Of a DNA stretch of 42,105 nt, positions 10,556 through 18,041 are shown piece by piece. Position numbers and translations under genes: made by a program. The stretch lies in contig CAJXOU010000026.1 of assembly GCA_913057645.1 (NCBI GenBank), positions 1 through 42,105 of the forward strand, read 5' to 3'. The notes beneath the pieces are model-generated. The model ran no database searches, was not told where the DNA came from, and saw only the letters and a list, made by a program, of their open reading frames with translations. Each line of letters starts with the position of its first letter. Position 1 is the first letter of the stretch. Origin of the DNA: an uncultured Rhodobiaceae bacterium. Lineage in GTDB: Bacteria; Pseudomonadota; Alphaproteobacteria; Parvibaculales; Parvibaculaceae.

Positions 10556-10920
<365 letters not shown>

Positions 10921-10952
10921 ACATCGCTTTTGACACCTCGTTTTCCCGTCGA

Positions 10953-10985
10953 CTGTCATCGAACAGTCATCGAACTGTCACGCTT
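10953..10985 (+). promoter_or_regulatory. Triple Pho-box-like array
   Basis: Three 11-bp units in direct tandem: CTGTCATCGAA (10953), CAGTCATCGAA (10964) and CTGTCACGCTT (10975). The known PhoB site is two 11-bp units of the form CTGTCATAWAW followed by CTGTCAY, which units one and three match in the conserved seven bases. TTGACA lies just upstream at 10930-10935. PhoB binding is inferred from the motif; the gene it would control is unclear, since mraZ starts about 470 bp downstream. Confidence 0.55.
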
Positions 10986-11159
10986 CCGGTGCGAGCTATG
11001 GAGGGGCCGCTTCGCGTTCACGGTTTTGGACCGTTTTCCGACCGCAAAGCCCGACTTGCAGAAGACCGGCATCTTTCCCCACACGGTTATCCCCGTCCGA
11101 TCCCTCCGGCTGGCACAGGTGTGTCACCGTGAAACAATGAGAACAAAGTAGAGACGAAT

Positions 11160-11174
11160 GTTCTATTTATGTTC
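11160..11174. promoter_or_regulatory. LexA-type (SOS) box, GTTC-N7-GTTC
   Basis: GTTC at 11160-11163 and GTTC at 11171-11174 are separated by exactly seven AT-rich bases (TATTTAT). This is the direct-repeat LexA box of alphaproteobacteria. A TACAAT hexamer (11186-11191) lies 11 bp further on, so LexA bound here could block a promoter firing toward mraZ. No good -35 hexamer accompanies it. The match is seen; its function is inferred. Confidence 0.5.
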
Positions 11175-11192
11175 TCAACAATATCTACAATT

Positions 11193-11207
11193 TTAACGGT
11201 CTGTTAA
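11193..11207. promoter_or_regulatory. CtrA box, TTAA-N7-TTAA
   Basis: TTAA at 11193-11196 and TTAA at 11204-11207, with seven bases between, is a perfect match to the full CtrA site known from Caulobacter. It sits right after the TACAAT hexamer and about 50 bp before the MraZ operator. CtrA controls division genes in Caulobacter, so the placement before a dcw cluster makes biological sense. Confidence 0.55.
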
Positions 11208-11252
11208 GCCTCCCAATACCGCTCAAAACCGCGAAAATACTAGGGTTTCCCG

Positions 11253-11298
11253 TTGACGCCCATGTAATCCCATGATATCCCATGATGTCCCGTATAAG
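11253..11298 (+). promoter_or_regulatory. dcw operon promoter elements overlapping the MraZ repeats
   Basis: TTGACG (11253-11258) is a good -35 element; 17 bp later TATCCC (11276-11281) is a moderate -10. A better -10, TATAAG (11293-11298), also lies nearby but is too far from the TTGACG and has only a poor -35 at the right spacing. Either way the MraZ repeats cover the promoter core, which fits autorepression. Confidence 0.5.
11258..11292 (-). promoter_or_regulatory. MraZ operator: four direct repeats with 10-bp period
   Basis: On the plus strand GCCCA (11258), TCCCA (11268), TCCCA (11278) and TCCCG (11288) recur every 10 bp; on the minus strand these read TGGGC, TGGGA, TGGGA and CGGGA. MraZ is known to bind TGGGN repeats separated by 5 nt upstream of its own gene and to repress the dcw operon. 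The first three units fit perfectly and the fourth has one change. Confidence 0.8.
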
Positions 11299-11452
11299 GC
11301 CATGCTGCCCCGATTGGTGCCAGCCGGTCCCGTGGACAAGACCTTCCCGACGGGAGGGGATGCCCGAGGACAGGATGTCCGGATGGGAGACGAGCGAAGG
11401 GCGGGTCTTTCCGGCAGGGGAAGACAACCCGACAGAGGGAGCAGGTCGGACG

Positions 11453-11938
11453 ATGGAGTCGTTCCGGGGGCGTTTCACGAACAGGATCGACGCGAAGGGG
11501 CGGGTTTCCGTGCCTGCGAAGTTCCGTGCCGTGACCATGGCTCAGGGGCTCAATGGCGTGATCTGCTTTCCGCCGCTCAATCCCGGCTCCTTCATCGAGG
11601 GCTGCGGCCCCGCCTTTTCCGAGATCGTCGACCAGATGCTCGACCGGCTCGACCCGTTCGCGCCGGAGCGCCAATCCCTCGCGGCGGTGCTGATCGGCGA
11701 GAGCGCGGAACTCACCTTCGATTCCGACGGCCGCGTGATCCTGCCCGAGACGCTGCGCAACCTCGCGGGCATCAGCGACGAGGCAACATTTGTCGGCATG
11801 GGGCAGCGCTTCCAGATATGGGAGCCGAAGGCCTACGACGCCTACTATGCGAAGGCGCTGGAAGACGCGCAGAAGTACCGCGATCTGCTGCGCTCGCCCT
11901 CGGCGCCCGCGAACCCTGGAACCGGAGGGACGCGATGA
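11453..11938 (+). CDS. mraZ: MraZ transcriptional regulator
   Basis: First gene of the division and cell wall cluster. The 161-residue product has two AbrB/SpoVT-like MraZ repeats: [25 protein letters not shown] (broken here as residues 1-25) and the second around [20 protein letters not shown]. Each holds the D-x-K/D-GRV-x-(V/I)P signature. MraZ forms rings and binds tandem TGGG repeats to repress its own operon; such repeats lie about 160 bp upstream. The start ATG at 11453 was chosen for the family N-terminus; AGGGAGCAGG precedes it. Its stop overlaps the rsmH start by four bases (ATGA). Confidence 0.95.
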
Positions 11939-12966
11939 GCGCTACCGGCCAGGGCAGAGTTCCTCATGTTCCGGTGATGCTGGCCGACGTTCTCGACGTT
12001 CTTCAACCTCGCGACGGCGGCATCTATGTGGACGGCACCTTCGGCGCCGGCGGCTACACGCGCGCGATCCTGGGCGCGGCCGACTGTGCGGTGCTGGCCA
12101 TCGACCGCGATCCGAATGCGATCCTCCGGGGGCGAGAGCTTGCGACCGAATTTGCGGGACGCCTGACGCTGATCGAAGGCCGTTTCGGGGATATGGAGCA
12201 GCTTGTACGTGCGCTCGGCCATGACGCGGTCGATGGCGTGGTCCTCGATATCGGCGTTTCCTCGATGCAGCTCGATGAGGCGGAACGCGGTTTCTCGTTC
12301 CAGCAGGACGGACCGCTCGACATGCGCATGAGCGCGGAAGGACCGTCCGCCGCCGATGTGGTCAACGGTTTCGACGAGGGCGATCTTGCCCGGATCATCG
12401 CCGTCTATGGCGAGGAGAGGCGGGCGCGGGCCGTGGCGCGGGCGATCGTGAAGGCGCGCGAGGAGGCGGAGCTTCACCGCACCCTCGAGCTTGCCGATCT
12501 GGTGGCGAAGGTCATCGGCCGCAAGCCACAGGACAAGATTCATCCCGCGACGCGCACTTTCCAGGCGCTCAGGATCTTCGTGAACGACGAACTCGGCGAG
12601 CTTGCGCGCGGGCTTTCCGGCGCCGAGGCGCTGCTCGGCGAGGGCGGACGGCTCGCGGTGGTCGCGTTCCATTCGCTCGAAGACCGGATCGTGAAGCGCT
12701 TCCTCACGGAGCGGACGGGCAGGGCGGGTCGCGCCAACCGCTACATGCCTGCGAGCGAAGAGGTGGTCCCCTCCTTCAGTGAGATCGCGCACAGGGCGCG
12801 CAAGGCCTCCGGCGCCGAAGTGGAAACGAATGCAAGGGCGCGCTCGGCGAAATTGCGCGCGGCAATCCGCACGGCCGCTCCGGCTCTGCCGCTCGACATG
12901 GGCGCGCTCGGCTTCCGCGCGGTTCCCTCGCTTGACGGAATTTCGCATGCGGGAGGCGCCGCATGA
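11935..12966 (+). CDS. rsmH: 16S rRNA (cytosine-1402-N4)-methyltransferase RsmH
   Basis: Also known as MraW. It transfers a methyl group from S-adenosylmethionine to N4 of C1402 in the decoding centre of 16S rRNA. The product of 343 residues opens with HVPVML (11-16) and the SAM-binding loop DGTFGAGG (33-40). It continues with [18 protein letters not shown] and, near the C-terminal end, [12 protein letters not shown], both hallmarks of the family. Four-base overlaps with mraZ and ftsL indicate translational coupling. Confidence 0.97.
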
Positions 12967-13340
12967 TCCGTTTCATCAATCTTCTTCTCGTGATGGCGGT
13001 GATCGGTCTTTCGGTCGGTCTCTACGACATCAAGTACCGGGCAGAGAGCGCGGACCGCCATGCGCGCCAGCTCGAACAGCGCATCGCCAAGGAGCAGGAA
13101 GCAATCCGCGTCCTGCGCGCCGAGTGGAGCTATCTCAACCAGCCGGAGCGGCTCCAGGAGCTGGCGAACCGCTACACGGAACTGAAGCCGCTGACGGCGG
13201 AGCAGATCGGCAGCTTCGAAGATGTTCCGATGCCGCACATGGCGGACGACTTCTATGTGCCGTCCGGCCGTCAGCCGCTCGGTGGCTATGCGGGGGTTTC
13301 GACACAGGGCATCGGTATGCCCGGGAGTACCATCCAATGA
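12963..13340 (+). CDS. ftsL: Cell division protein FtsL
   Basis: A small bitopic membrane protein (125 residues). It has one membrane segment at residues about 4-20 ([18 protein letters not shown]) and then a coiled-coil with heptads (residues about 30-60, [20 protein letters not shown]). A conserved stretch, [20 protein letters not shown], follows. The last 40 residues are proline/glycine-rich and probably unordered. FtsL works with FtsB and FtsQ to activate FtsW-FtsI at the septum. Identity rests on topology, coiled coil and position between rsmH and ftsI, since FtsL sequence is poorly conserved. Both ends overlap the neighbours by four bases. Confidence 0.88.
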
Positions 13341-15091
13341 TCGGCCGCAACAACAGCGCGTCTCACGGGCGCTACCTTCCGCCGGGCCATGACGCCATTT
13401 CAATGCGGCGCGCACCGCATCAGGGGGCCGGGCGCACAGCGTCGCAGCGGCGCATATTCCTTTCGCTCGCGGTCTTCGCCGCCTGTTTCACGCTGGTTGG
13501 CGCAAGGCTTGTCGGGCTCGCGATCATGGGCGGGAGCGGCGAGGGTGCCGCCGTCGTCGCGAGCGCCGCCACGCAGGTGCATCGTCCCGACATCGTGGAC
13601 CGGAACGGCGAGGTGATGGCGACGGATATTGCGACTGCCTCGCTCTTTGCCGATGCGCGCTATGTGATCGATCCGGCGGAGACCGCGCGTCAGCTGACCA
13701 GCGTTCTGCCCGATCTCGATCTCGCCGATACGACGGAAAAACTTTCCTCGGGCCGTGCCTTCATCTGGCTGAAGCGGGATCTCACACCGAAGCAGCAATA
13801 TGCGGTGCACTATCTCGGCCTGCCCGGGCTCGACTTCCGCAGCGAACAGAAACGTGTCTACCCGAACGGCAAGACAGGCTCCAACGTGCTCGGCATGGTC
13901 GATATCGACAATCGGGGTATCGCGGGCATCGAACGCTACATGGACAGCCGTCTTGCCCAGGAGGACGCGGCGGGCGCACCTCGCTTCGACCGGAACACGA
14001 CGGTAATGCTGTCGATCGATCTCCATGTGCAGCATGCGCTGCGCGACGAGCTCGAAAAGGCAATGGGCGAGTTCAGCGCGATGGCCGCCGCAGGCGTCAT
14101 CATGGACGTGCATACGGGCGAAGTGGTGGCGATGAGCTCGCTTCCCGATTTCGATCCGAACGACCCGATGGCATCGCCCGACGAGAACCGTTTCAACCGG
14201 GCGACGCTCGGCGTCTACGAGATGGGTTCGGTCTTCAAGGCTGTTACGCTTGCGGCAGCGCTCGACAGCGGCAAGGTAAATCTCGACGGGCGCTTCGATG
14301 CGACGAAGCCGCTGAAGGTCGCGCGTTTCACCATCCATGATTACCATGCGGAGAACCGCTGGCTCTCCGTGCCGGAAGTCTTCATTCACTCCTCGAACAT
14401 CGGTACGGCGAAGATTGCGCTGCAGCTCGGGGGCGAGGAGCATCGCGACTATCTGCGACGCTTCGGTCTTCTCACCCGCCCGCAAATCGAGTTGCCGGAA
14501 TCGGGTGCGCCGCTCACGCCCGCGCGGTGGGGCGAGCTTGCCACGATCACGACGTCATATGGTCACGGTATCGCCGTAACGCCGCTGCAGGTGGCGAGCG
14601 CGGTTTCCACCATCGTGAACGGCGGTTTCAAGGTGCAGCCCACATTCATGCGCCGCAACGAGGCGGCTCTCGGCGAACGCGTGATCTCGGCGGATACGAG
14701 CGCGACCATGCGGGGGCTGCTCCGTCTCGTCGTTATGGAAGGTACGGGGCGCAAGGCGGATGTCGCCGGCTATCCCGTGATGGGCAAGACCGGTACGGCG
14801 GAGAAGCCTTTCAATGGCGGCTATTCGCGGACGAAGCTCATCACCTCCTTCATCAGCGCTTTCCCGGCGAACGATCCTCGTTACGCCATGATCGTGATGT
14901 TCGATGAGCCGAAGGCGAACAAGGAAACATTCGGTTACGCGACGGCCGGCTGGAACGCAGCGCCGGTGACATCGCGCGTCGTCTCGCGCGTGGCGCCGCT
15001 GCTGGGTCTGCGTCCGGCGACGAAGCCGCAGGAGAACGAAATGATGCGGGAAGCAAAGCTCGTCTCCTACGAGACGTTGAGCGGACAGTGA
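13337..15091 (+). CDS. ftsI: Peptidoglycan DD-transpeptidase FtsI (PBP3)
   Basis: Class B penicillin-binding protein that crosslinks septal peptidoglycan. The product of 584 residues has a basic cytoplasmic N-terminus, one membrane segment near residues 40-62 (RIFLSLAVFAACFTLVGARL), a dimerisation domain (VDRNGEVMATDI onward) and the transpeptidase domain. The three active-site motifs are visible: SVFK with the acylated Ser298, SSN at 352-354 and KTG at 484-486. It would be anchored in the inner membrane with the enzyme domain in the periplasm, as partner of FtsW encoded downstream. Start overlaps ftsL by four bases. A 44-bp gap, the first in the operon, separates it from murE. Confidence 0.97.
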   Translation: MIGRNNSASHGRYLPPGHDAISMRRAPHQGAGRTASQRRIFLSLAVFAACFTLVGARLVGLAIMGGSGEGAAVVASAATQVHRPDIVDRNGEVMATDIATASLFADARYVIDPAETARQLTSVLPDLDLADTTEKLSSGRAFIWLKRDLTPKQQYAVHYLGLPGLDFRSEQKRVYPNGKTGSNVLGMVDIDNRGIAGIERYMDSRLAQEDAAGAPRFDRNTTVMLSIDLHVQHALRDELEKAMGEFSAMAAAGVIMDVHTGEVVAMSSLPDFDPNDPMASPDENRFNRATLGVYEMGSVFKAVTLAAALDSGKVNLDGRFDATKPLKVARFTIHDYHAENRWLSVPEVFIHSSNIGTAKIALQLGGEEHRDYLRRFGLLTRPQIELPESGAPLTPARWGELATITTSYGHGIAVTPLQVASAVSTIVNGGFKVQPTFMRRNEAALGERVISADTSATMRGLLRLVVMEGTGRKADVAGYPVMGKTGTAEKPFNGGYSRTKLITSFISAFPANDPRYAMIVMFDEPKANKETFGYATAGWNAAPVTSRVVSRVAPLLGLRPATKPQENEMMREAKLVSYETLSGQ

Positions 15092-15135: not shown

Positions 15136-16605
15136 ATGTTGGGTGATATGCAATTGGCGGCGCTGATCGGGTCCGATGCCCTGCCGCTCCCCGAAGGGGG
15201 GGCGACGGAGATTGCCGGGCTGACGGCGGACAGCCGTGCCGTCAAACCCGGCTATCTCTTCGCGGCATTGCCGGGCACGAAGCTCGACGGCACGGCCTTC
15301 ATTGCGCAGGCGCTGGAAAAGGGCGCGGCGGCGCTTCTTGTGCCGCAGGGCTCGGCTGTCGAGGCGGGCGTGCCGGTGATTGCCGACCGCAACCCACGCC
15401 GCAGGCTTGCACATATGGCGGCTCGCTTCTTCGGCGCGCAGCCGCGCACCATCGCGGCCGTAACCGGCACGAACGGCAAGACCTCGGTCGCGACTTTCCT
15501 CCGGCAGATATGGGCGGCGCTCGGCGAGGAAGCGGCGAGCCTCGGCACGCTCGGCATTGCGAGCCCGAAGGGCGAACGCCCGCTCGGCTACACCACGCCC
15601 GATCCCGTGGCCTTGCAGGCCGAACTCGCCGCGCTCGCGAAAGAGGGCGTGACGCATCTTGCGATGGAAGCATCGAGCCATGGCCTCGCACAGTACCGGC
15701 TCGACGGTGCGAAGCTCACGGCGGCGGGCTTCACCAACATCACCCGCGACCACATGGACTACCATGCCAGTTTCGACGATTACCTCTATGCGAAGCTGCG
15801 TCTCTTCGGCGAGGTGATGGGCCCGGGCGGCGTCGCCGTCATCAATGCCGACAGCGCGCAATTCGCCGAGTTCGAGGCTGTCTCCTGGGCGCGTGGGCAC
15901 CGCGTGATCTCGGTCGGCCGCAAGGGCCGCGACATCTGTCTGGTGAGCACGCAGGCCCATGCACGCGGCCAGACGCTCGCCCTTGTCCATGACGGTGACA
16001 ATTATGAAGTGAAGCTGCCGCTGGTCGGTGGCTTCCAGGCCTCGAACGCGCTTGTCGCGGCGGGGCTCGCCATCGGTTGCGGCGCGGATGCCGCGAAGGT
16101 CTTTGCGGCACTCGAGAAACTCACGGGCGCCAAGGGCCGGATGGAAGAAGCGGCGCACCTCGCAAACGGTGCTTCGGTCTATATCGATTATGCGCATACA
16201 CCGGATGCGCTCGAAAACGTGCTGGAAGCGATGCGTCCGCACACGAAGAAGCGGCTTCACGTCGTGTTCGGCTGCGGCGGCGACCGGGATCCGGGCAAGC
16301 GCCCGATCATGGGCGAGATCGCGGCGAAACTTGCCGATGCCGTCTATGTGACCGACGACAATCCGCGTGGCGAGGATGCGGGCACGATCCGCGCGGCCAT
16401 CATGAAGGGTTGTCCCGGCGCAACGGAGATCGGCGACCGGGCGAAAGCCATCGAAACGGCGACCGCAGCGCTCGATACCGGCGACGTTCTCGTCGTCGCG
16501 GGCAAGGGGCATGAGACCGGACAGATCATCGGGGAGAAAACGGTCCCCTTTTCCGACCACGAGGCGGTGCTGGCGGCAGCGAAAAGACATGGAGGTGGCG
16601 CATGA
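15136..16605 (+). CDS. murE: UDP-MurNAc-tripeptide synthetase MurE
   Basis: Adds the third residue of the stem peptide in the cytoplasm. The Mur ligase P-loop GTNGKTS lies at 111-117, followed by TPDPVALQAELA and the carbamylated-lysine region (YHASFDDYLYAKLRLF). The specificity motif DNPR at 408-411 (TDDNPRGED) is the signature of enzymes that use meso-diaminopimelate rather than lysine. The length of 489 residues is normal. I kept the first ATG (15136); a second in-frame ATG at 15148 would give a protein four residues shorter. The 3' end overlaps murF by four bases. Confidence 0.97.
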   Translation: MLGDMQLAALIGSDALPLPEGGATEIAGLTADSRAVKPGYLFAALPGTKLDGTAFIAQALEKGAAALLVPQGSAVEAGVPVIADRNPRRRLAHMAARFFGAQPRTIAAVTGTNGKTSVATFLRQIWAALGEEAASLGTLGIASPKGERPLGYTTPDPVALQAELAALAKEGVTHLAMEASSHGLAQYRLDGAKLTAAGFTNITRDHMDYHASFDDYLYAKLRLFGEVMGPGGVAVINADSAQFAEFEAVSWARGHRVISVGRKGRDICLVSTQAHARGQTLALVHDGDNYEVKLPLVGGFQASNALVAAGLAIGCGADAAKVFAALEKLTGAKGRMEEAAHLANGASVYIDYAHTPDALENVLEAMRPHTKKRLHVVFGCGGDRDPGKRPIMGEIAAKLADAVYVTDDNPRGEDAGTIRAAIMKGCPGATEIGDRAKAIETATAALDTGDVLVVAGKGHETGQIIGEKTVPFSDHEAVLAAAKRHGGGA

Positions 16606-18041
16606 CGGCCCCTCTGTGGACGCGAGACGAGGTGATCGCCGCGACCGGAGGCCGCGCGCAGGGCGCGGACTGGTCGGCGAGCGGTGTTTCCATCGACAGC
16701 CGTACGCTGGAGGCGGGTGATCTCTTCGTGGCCATCGCCGGTGAAAATTCGGATGGACATACATATGTGGAGCGAGCGCTGAAGAGCGGCGCGTCCGCCG
16801 CCATCGTTGCCCGCTCCGACGAGGCGATGCGCGCCGCGGGATCGCTCGTCGTCGTGGACGACACGCTCAAGGCCCTGGAGGCGCTCGGCCGCGCGGCGCG
16901 GGCGCGCACGCAAGCGAAAGTCGTCGCCGTTACCGGCAGCGTCGGCAAGACCGGCACGAAGGAGGCGCTGCGGCTCATCCTTTCCGAGCAGGGCGCGACC
17001 CATGCTTCTGCCGCTTCCTACAACAACATGTGGGGCGTGCCGCTTTCGCTGGCGCGGATGCCCGCCGATACGCGGTTCGGCATTTTCGAAGTGGGGATGA
17101 ACCATCCCGGCGAGATCACGCCGCTGTCGAGGCTCGTCGAGCCGTTCGCCGCACTCATCACGACGGTCGAGGCCGTGCACATGGCCTTCTTCGACTCGGT
17201 CGAACAGATCGCGGATGCAAAGGGCGAGATCTTCGACGGACTGCAGAAGGGCGGCGTGGCGATCCTCAATCGCGACAACCCGCATTTCGAGCGCCTGCTT
17301 GCGAAGGCAAAGGCGAGCGGCGCCGGACGCATCATTTCCTTCGGCGAACACGCGGACGCGGAAGCCCGGCTCGACAAGGTGGCGCTGAAGGAAGACTGTT
17401 CCTGCGTTTCGGCGACGATTTGCGGACAGCCCGTCACATACAAGCTCTCGGTGCCGGGGCGTCACATCGTGATGAACTCGCTGGCGATGCTCGCGGTCGT
17501 GCATGCGCTCGATGCCGATCTCGCGATGGCGGCACTTGCGATGGCGCATCTCAAGGCACCGAAGGGCCGTGGCGAACGGCACCGCGTGGAAACGCCACTC
17601 GGTCCCTTCACGGTCATCGACGAGAGCTACAACGCCAATCCAGCCTCGATGCGCGCCGCGCTCGAAGCGCTGGGGCAGGCGAAACCGGAAGCGCAGGGCC
17701 GGCGCATCGCCGTTATCGGCGACATGCTGGAACTCGGCGACGACTCCATTGCGATGCATCGCGGGCTTGCCGAAACGATCCGCGAGGCGGATGTCGATCT
17801 CGTTTTCGCGAGCGGACCGCATATGCGCGAACTCTTCAAGGCGCTACCCGCCGGGACGCAGGGTGCCTATGGGGAAACGTCGGACGAACTCGGCGAGGCG
17901 TTGCGCGAGGCGGTGGAGCCGGGCGACGTGGTGATGGTGAAGGGATCTCTCGGTTCCCGCATGGGGCCGATCGTCGATCTGCTGAGGGGGCTCGGCGACG
18001 ACGAAGGCGAGAGCATCCGGCGCAACAGGGGGGGCAACTGA
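16602..18041 (+). CDS. murF: UDP-MurNAc-tripeptide--D-Ala-D-Ala ligase MurF
   Basis: Joins the D-alanyl-D-alanine dipeptide (made by Ddl, encoded downstream) to the UDP-MurNAc tripeptide, giving the pentapeptide. The product of 479 residues has the N-terminal substrate domain with [17 protein letters not shown] (about 29-45), the ATP loop [11 protein letters not shown] (111-121), and the C-terminal domain with [16 protein letters not shown]. The last third includes [10 protein letters not shown], conserved in MurF. It overlaps murE by four bases and mraY by one (TGATG). Confidence 0.97.

Follow-up and report, generated by a model that had tools for sequence, protein, structure and literature searches.

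A predicted LexA operator with constrained spacing to the MraZ-boxed dcw promoter in many Alphaproteobacteria

The major finding from the window (the whole 42,105-nucleotide stretch of DNA analyzed here) concerns a LexA-type site, GTTC-N7-GTTC, which recurs before mraZ in about half of the Alphaproteobacteria examined and whose spacing to the MraZ-boxed promoter of the dcw cluster (P2) is constrained. The 300 bp ahead of the P2 core contained an exact box at 111/210 mraZ loci, representing 53 families. This was missed by the original prediction, which was made on the window and proposed phosphate, SOS, cell cycle and MraZ control sites ahead of mraZ. Compared with that prediction, the LexA finding is larger, being class-wide and of constrained spacing, and the Pho finding is smaller, being confined to some members of a single genus. 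The site at mraZ very probably functions as a LexA operator in one way or another. Its position suggests that DNA damage and the supply of division proteins have long been linked, a connection that has drawn little attention so far.

The window originates from a Parvibaculum-like alphaproteobacterium with a draft genome of 3.75 Mb, for which Parvibaculum provided the nearest named records. Its rnpB and mraZ genes are separated by 529 bp, and mraZ is followed by a dcw cluster of ordinary make-up (Table 1). The gap is best explained as the stretch from which the dcw operon is controlled. The four predicted matches were all present in the sequence, over a span of about 340 bp of which the first lies 500 bp ahead of mraZ, and the LexA and CtrA matches were read with all eight fixed bases as claimed. 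The MraZ repeats were likewise found as an array, with the difference that the TGGG form belongs to the minus strand, the plus strand reading TCCC or CCC. Genes for the corresponding regulators LexA (TIGR00498), CtrA (NF045991) and PhoB (TIGR02154) were identified in the same genome, all above curated cut-offs. MraZ is also encoded, above the Pfam cut-off and below the NCBIfam cut-offs, the best NCBIfam MraZ model giving 143.5 bits against a cut-off of 162.

Table 1. Positions of genes and predicted control sites around the rnpB-mraZ gap of the window
Feature	Positions	Strand	Details
rnpB, RNase P RNA class A	10557..10923	+	Rfam RF00010, 319.6 bits; upstream neighbor on the same strand as mraZ
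Triple Pho-box-like array	10953..10985	+	Three 11-bp units, CTGTCAT/CAGTCAT/CTGTCAC at 10953-10981; direct reading
LexA operator (predicted)	11160..11174	+	GTTCTATTTATGTTC; GTTC-N7-GTTC; center 103 bp upstream of the P2 core
CtrA box (predicted)	11193..11207		TTAACGGTCTGTTAA; TTAA-N7-TTAA; center 70 bp upstream of the P2 core
MraZ-box array	11248..11291	-	Five units in 10-bp register; TCCC or CCC on +, TGGG type on -; overlaps P2
Promoter P2	11253..11281	+	Sigma70 type; -35 TTGACG 11253-11258, 17-bp spacer, -10 TATCCC 11276-11281; inferred start
mraZ	11453..11938	+	ATG at 11453; Pfam PF02381, 4.6e-19, above cut-off
rsmH/mraW	11935..12966	+	Profile match; first gene after mraZ
ftsL	12963-13340	+	Profile match; after rsmH/mraW
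ftsI-type transpeptidase	13337-15091	+	Profile match; dcw cluster
Two Mur ligases	15136-18041	+	Profile matches; dcw cluster
murD, ftsW, murC, FtsQ-like gene, ftsA, ftsZ	up to 30339	+	Profile matches; FtsQ models all below cut-offs

Within the window's own genome, GTTC-N7-GTTC occurs 126 times (control, 50), and the form with T at the end of the spacer, as in the mraZ site, occurs 26 times (control, 8). There were 18 distinct TTAA-N7-TTAA sites in the whole genome (control, 12). From these counts, each site is expected to be rare within a gap of 529 bp. The mraZ box resembles those that precede lexA and ssb in this genome, as well as those before a YifB/ComM-type gene and a DNA polymerase III alpha gene, the lexA site lying 76 bp upstream of the TIGR00498 match on contig C29. 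The gene beside ssb may be uvrA. Strong LexA-type sites were also observed before a trypsin-like protease gene (L004, G000:C3:69566-69580), with the very spacer of the mraZ box, and at a gene for a C5 cytosine methylase (L084, G000:C60:8878-8892), and both genes are candidates for unusual SOS genes. An assignment of rmuC behind one of the genomic sites was rejected, the gene there being a PQQ dehydrogenase.

Alignment of the region from related genomes had been proposed in the original prediction as a check on each site, and its outcome differed among the four. These data cover 22 genus-level loci, L040 and L041 having been excluded for their short upstream sequence. The LexA box passed strongly: it was exact in 20/22 loci, the other two (L047 and L048) reading GTTT-N7-GTTC, and its eight fixed columns had a mean pairwise identity of 0.978 compared to 0.462 for 82 non-site columns. 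The MraZ site passed just as clearly, P2 being near-invariant in the genus (mean pairwise identity, 0.864). Conservation of the CtrA box was moderate, with exact sites in 13/22 loci, a single mismatch in 2 more, and a mean column identity of 0.689. Conservation of the Pho array was partial: a score of at least 16 of 21 was obtained in 9/22 regions, eight of which have the array immediately behind rnpB, and it was missing at that place in the closest relative, L039.

For the class-wide survey, 237 mraZ loci were collected: a first set of 116, a second set of 80, a group of 25 from the genus itself or genera close to it, and 16 named loci from outside. The first set comprised 110 taken from among the best-listed MraZ matches in a class search (248 genomes with a match) plus 6 more from the window's family, in which 5/40 genomes gave no mraZ match. 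The second set comprised 79 of 80 genomes of at least 2 Mb (G096, with a partial match, was excluded) plus G249 (1.7 Mb). One locus was present twice (L037 and L095); the duplicate was removed for the count of 111/210 given above and is still contained in the following control counts. In the 230 bp upstream of P2 the exact box was found in 113/211 loci, compared to 1/211 for the same DNA read backwards and 3/210 for the next 230 bp upstream. Within the mraZ reading frame, the initial 230 bp contained the LexA word in 11/140 loci, and these matches were taken to be coding sequence.

The association with LexA itself was assessed in the first set. The exact box, in either orientation, was found within 600 bp upstream of mraZ in 46/89 genomes with LexA and 1/27 without (Fisher, 2.8e-6), a contrast that is confounded by lineage because the LexA-negative genomes are mostly small and distant. 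Among LexA-bearing families, 30/51 had the box. Permuted words gave 0 to 2 of the 89 LexA-bearing genomes, and the 7-bp spacer was unique among spacings of 0 to 19 (46 versus 0 to 5). AACA-N7-AACA outscored the LexA word (50/89) and was recognized as the same site shifted by one base. The large number of GTTC-N7-GTTC sites in the genome might be taken to mean that the sites before mraZ are chance matches. The conservation in the genus alignment, together with the backwards-DNA and permuted-word controls, speaks against this and refutes chance as the source of the LexA site and of the MraZ boxes; for the sites as a group, we consider chance a negligible prospect, though the Pho array taken alone may still be such a match.

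The box is not universal. It was not found in exact form in 43/89 LexA-bearing genomes, nor in any of 16 named non-Parvibaculum loci (L050-L065), many apparently of the Hyphomicrobiales type, of which 15/16 had P2, suggesting from these upstream regions that the box was lost or absent in those lineages. In 99 box-less loci, one-mismatch sites were counted 39 times in reverse and 24 times in forward orientation, compared to 7 to 15 for four control words, and only 5 of the reverse sites were located 159 to 169 bp from P2, the commonest position described below. Decayed boxes may therefore remain in some of these loci, the loss not having been clean. Two LexA boxes were observed at mraZ in some families, either overlapping in an 11-bp register or separated by 60 to 76 bp. 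The double boxes were at 93 and 104 bp from the P2 core in L195 and L231, at approximately 151 and 227 bp in L180 and L190, and at 91 and 151 bp in L294.

The assignment of P2 is supported by the following data. Its core, CCATGATATCCCA, starts at 11270, and the mean sigma70 score across loci peaked exactly at the position of its -35 hexamer. A 47-bp element, TCCC.TTGACGCCCAT..AATCCCATG.TATCCCAT.A..TCCCATA, scored at least 8 in 211/237 mraZ loci, which is no independent test since the matrix was built from 147 of the same loci; the reversed sequence scored -1.6 or less. The cut of 8 was chosen once the scores were seen, and the 26/237 loci below it were dropped from the spacing analysis. An MraZ operator is recognized by at least three TGGG-type repeats in a 10-bp register at mraZ; five units were found here, and the array is conserved class-wide. 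Autorepression by MraZ is known. The array resembles the TGGG repeats reported for E. coli (Eraso et al. 2014) in placing repeats of 10-bp register over the mraZ promoter, and it differs in having five units fused with a strongly conserved -35/-10 pair. P2 would be the working dcw promoter, overlapped by the MraZ boxes of an autorepression circuit. In the genus, a conserved patch near ACCGCGAAAATACTAGG (11223-11245) immediately precedes P2, and other families show a TTTA patch approximately 14 to 17 bp ahead of the P2 -35; this is perhaps an UP element or the site of another regulator.

The distance between the LexA box and P2 was compared across families. In the window's family the box, where found (30/34 loci with P2, including one duplicate), was always forward, and 102 to 105 bp separated its center from the P2 core downstream; in a subclade this was 114 bp, longer by one helical turn. 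Elsewhere the box was mostly reversed, and 28/70 family clusters fell at 159 to 169 bp from the P2 core. Within this modal group, conservation between box and P2 was limited to P2 itself and the TTTA patch. The distance from rnpB to the box ranged from 9 to 475 bp. Since the box-P2 distance is held while the rnpB-box distance is free and the intervening sequence has diverged, the box-P2 distance is under constraint. Because of the free rnpB-box distance beside a held box-P2 distance, and because rnpB was on the mraZ strand wherever it was found (28/40 box-bearing relatives scanned, many with only about 800 bp of upstream sequence), assignment of the box to rnpB or to a divergent gene was rejected.

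The clusters outside the 159- to 169-bp mode were in phase with the mode at 10.5 bp (V = 0.29, p = 0.003) and not at 10.0 or 11.0 bp, where the reference phase and mode limits were picked after the data were seen and the families are not independent, so that p-values serve as guides. Owing to the dominance of the mode, a plain Rayleigh analysis of all 82 values was as strong for a period of 12.25 bp (p = 1.8e-5) as for one of 10.25 bp (p = 1.4e-5). For the 30 reverse clusters outside the mode taken alone, the phasing gave a p of about 0.10. Helical phasing of box and P2 is regarded as suggestive only.

These distances also bear on the proposal that bound LexA stops transcription that runs on from rnpB into dcw. 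The box was located 9 to 40 bp after rnpB in some loci, and a scan of the window found no intrinsic terminator in 10880-11500, both of which would suit a roadblock. The proposal is nevertheless deemed very unlikely, as it is the distance to P2 that is held and not the distance to rnpB.

It was also considered that the box covers a second, poorly recognizable promoter, P1, from which classical LexA repression would be lifted to yield an extra SOS-induced mraZ-dcw transcript. Classical LexA operators overlap promoters, which counts for this explanation. The best promoter over the box was no better than with shuffled flanks: reverse boxes gave 3.82 versus 3.78 on the plus strand and 5.40 versus 5.27 on the minus strand, and forward boxes gave 4.97 versus 4.59 and 4.21 versus 4.47. 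Single offsets did exceed the shuffles, namely for a -35 that begins 10 bp ahead of reverse boxes (z = 7.7) and one 2 bp ahead of f1 boxes (z = 8.4), with poor mean scores of -1.5 and 0.9 compared to 5.4 for P2. A promoter over the box was unsupported overall on both strands although single offsets beat shuffles, and weak promoters could escape. Further support for P1 comes from agrobacterial mraZ, which is named in the accessible text of PMC10469942 among the genes with a secondary start site in at least one ortholog. Since P1 also leaves the spacing to P2 unexplained, it was judged rather unlikely. Two overlapping promoter-like matches (0.2 expected) were observed beside the LexA and CtrA boxes on the minus strand (11207-11178), reading away from mraZ. 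They were the sole matches in a stricter consensus promoter scan of the window, P2 not being among them.

Either LexA acts on P2 from approximately 80 to 140 bp away or the box covers a promoter of a strength below recognition. Given the constrained spacing and the lack of a strong recognizable promoter at the box, LexA probably acts on the P2 complex from afar, through contact or a DNA loop. The box, taken as a true LexA operator placing dcw under SOS control, lies about 80 bp upstream of the P2 -35 in the window's family and about 140 bp upstream at the commonest position elsewhere. From there LexA would most likely restrain P2 jointly with MraZ. RecA-triggered cleavage of LexA would lift the restraint and allow a pulse of mraZ-dcw transcript, which MraZ would shut off again. 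The sequences show the sites, their conservation and spacing and the regulator genes; binding, action at a distance and, above all, the direction of that action are inferred. The mechanism as a whole, a distant LexA operator restraining P2 and released in SOS, is put forward tentatively, at slightly under an even chance.

The direction could also be the opposite, with LexA an upstream activator of P2, such that intact LexA supports dcw transcription, SOS lowers it and division slows. The location of the box upstream of a clear promoter rather than over it, at constrained spacing, would fit an activator, and the LexA of Rhodobacter reportedly enhances recA transcription. For direct contact, the distance of approximately 120 to 185 bp from box center to inferred start is long. 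Caulobacter lacking lexA and sidA was not filamentous according to the accessible text of PMC12700426, which would also argue against activation if Caulobacter has the box. Activation by LexA is considered unlikely.

For restraint by LexA at P2, further inputs are suggested in Parvibaculum. There, a CtrA box between the LexA box and P2 would add cell-cycle control. In the genus this box lies 70 to 72 bp upstream of the P2 core, or 82 bp in a subclade, and outside the window's family it was found in 15/177 loci compared to 0 to 4 for permuted words, a modest class-wide enrichment. Loss of CckA, which acts upstream of CtrA, raised mraZ and ftsL in Caulobacter (PMC12421884, accessible text), and because of this CtrA is, by analogy across genera, probably a repressor at mraZ. 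A CtrA motif before mraZ has been predicted computationally for S. meliloti as well, as far as the accessible part of PMC3616915 describes it; the site here differs in being a full TTAA-N7-TTAA at a fixed distance and beside a LexA box. For some members of the genus, control by phosphate through a PhoB site would be added. The three-unit score of the Pho array was 19/21, matched by 0/60 shuffles; the array appears to be real but limited to some members of one genus. A reverse GAAC-N7-GAAC was observed within it, at 10961-10975, and was absent from relatives read in the right orientation; it is considered to arise incidentally from the Pho repeats.

More broadly, these features could represent an ancestral alphaproteobacterial SOS switch on dcw, in which LexA on a phase-locked upstream operator and MraZ on P2 form one regulatory complex, possibly a loop, which CtrA and PhoB join in Parvibaculum. 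This wider proposal is possible but doubtful. If it is true, DNA damage would directly reset the synthesis of the divisome and wall enzymes in much of the class, beside the action of small inhibitors such as SidA. SOS control of division is usually ascribed to dedicated small inhibitors such as SulA, SidA and YneA. A LexA operator heading dcw, with its spacing to the MraZ promoter fixed in many of the 53 families, would mean that many Alphaproteobacteria also couple the transcription of division and wall genes itself to DNA damage.

In the open-access literature searched, LexA at mraZ was found solely for Gram-positive gut bacteria, and an account for the alphaproteobacterial dcw cluster may exist in subscription papers. 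In the Gram-positive case, a LexA operator before mraZ in a metagenomic gene was bound by LexA in vitro (PMC3998124, 2014). As far as the accessible text of that paper goes, the protein was B. subtilis LexA, the motif was of the Gram-positive type and no spacing to an MraZ-boxed promoter was described. Since a different phylum is concerned, the two kinds of LexA-mraZ site are probably independent. The alphaproteobacterial SOS regulon of PMC12700426 shares the GTTC-N7-GTTC motif, and the same kind of site was found at lexA and ssb here; the accessible text does not name mraZ or dcw as a target. A term search found no mraZ in the main texts of the Caulobacter SOS papers PMC12700426, PMC13384398 and PMC4211646, and a Caulobacter LexA ChIP-seq data set is public (GSE76721, cited in the accessible text of PMC12700426). 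Other regulators, NtrX and CenR, were located by ChIP-seq at the mraZ promoter of R. sphaeroides, another alphaproteobacterium (PMC7240162 and PMC9275681, accessible texts). Unlike LexA, these two are not SOS regulators, and the CenR signal was reported there without its motif. A LexA operator is in itself a known kind of system; what appears new is its placement at the alphaproteobacterial dcw cluster.
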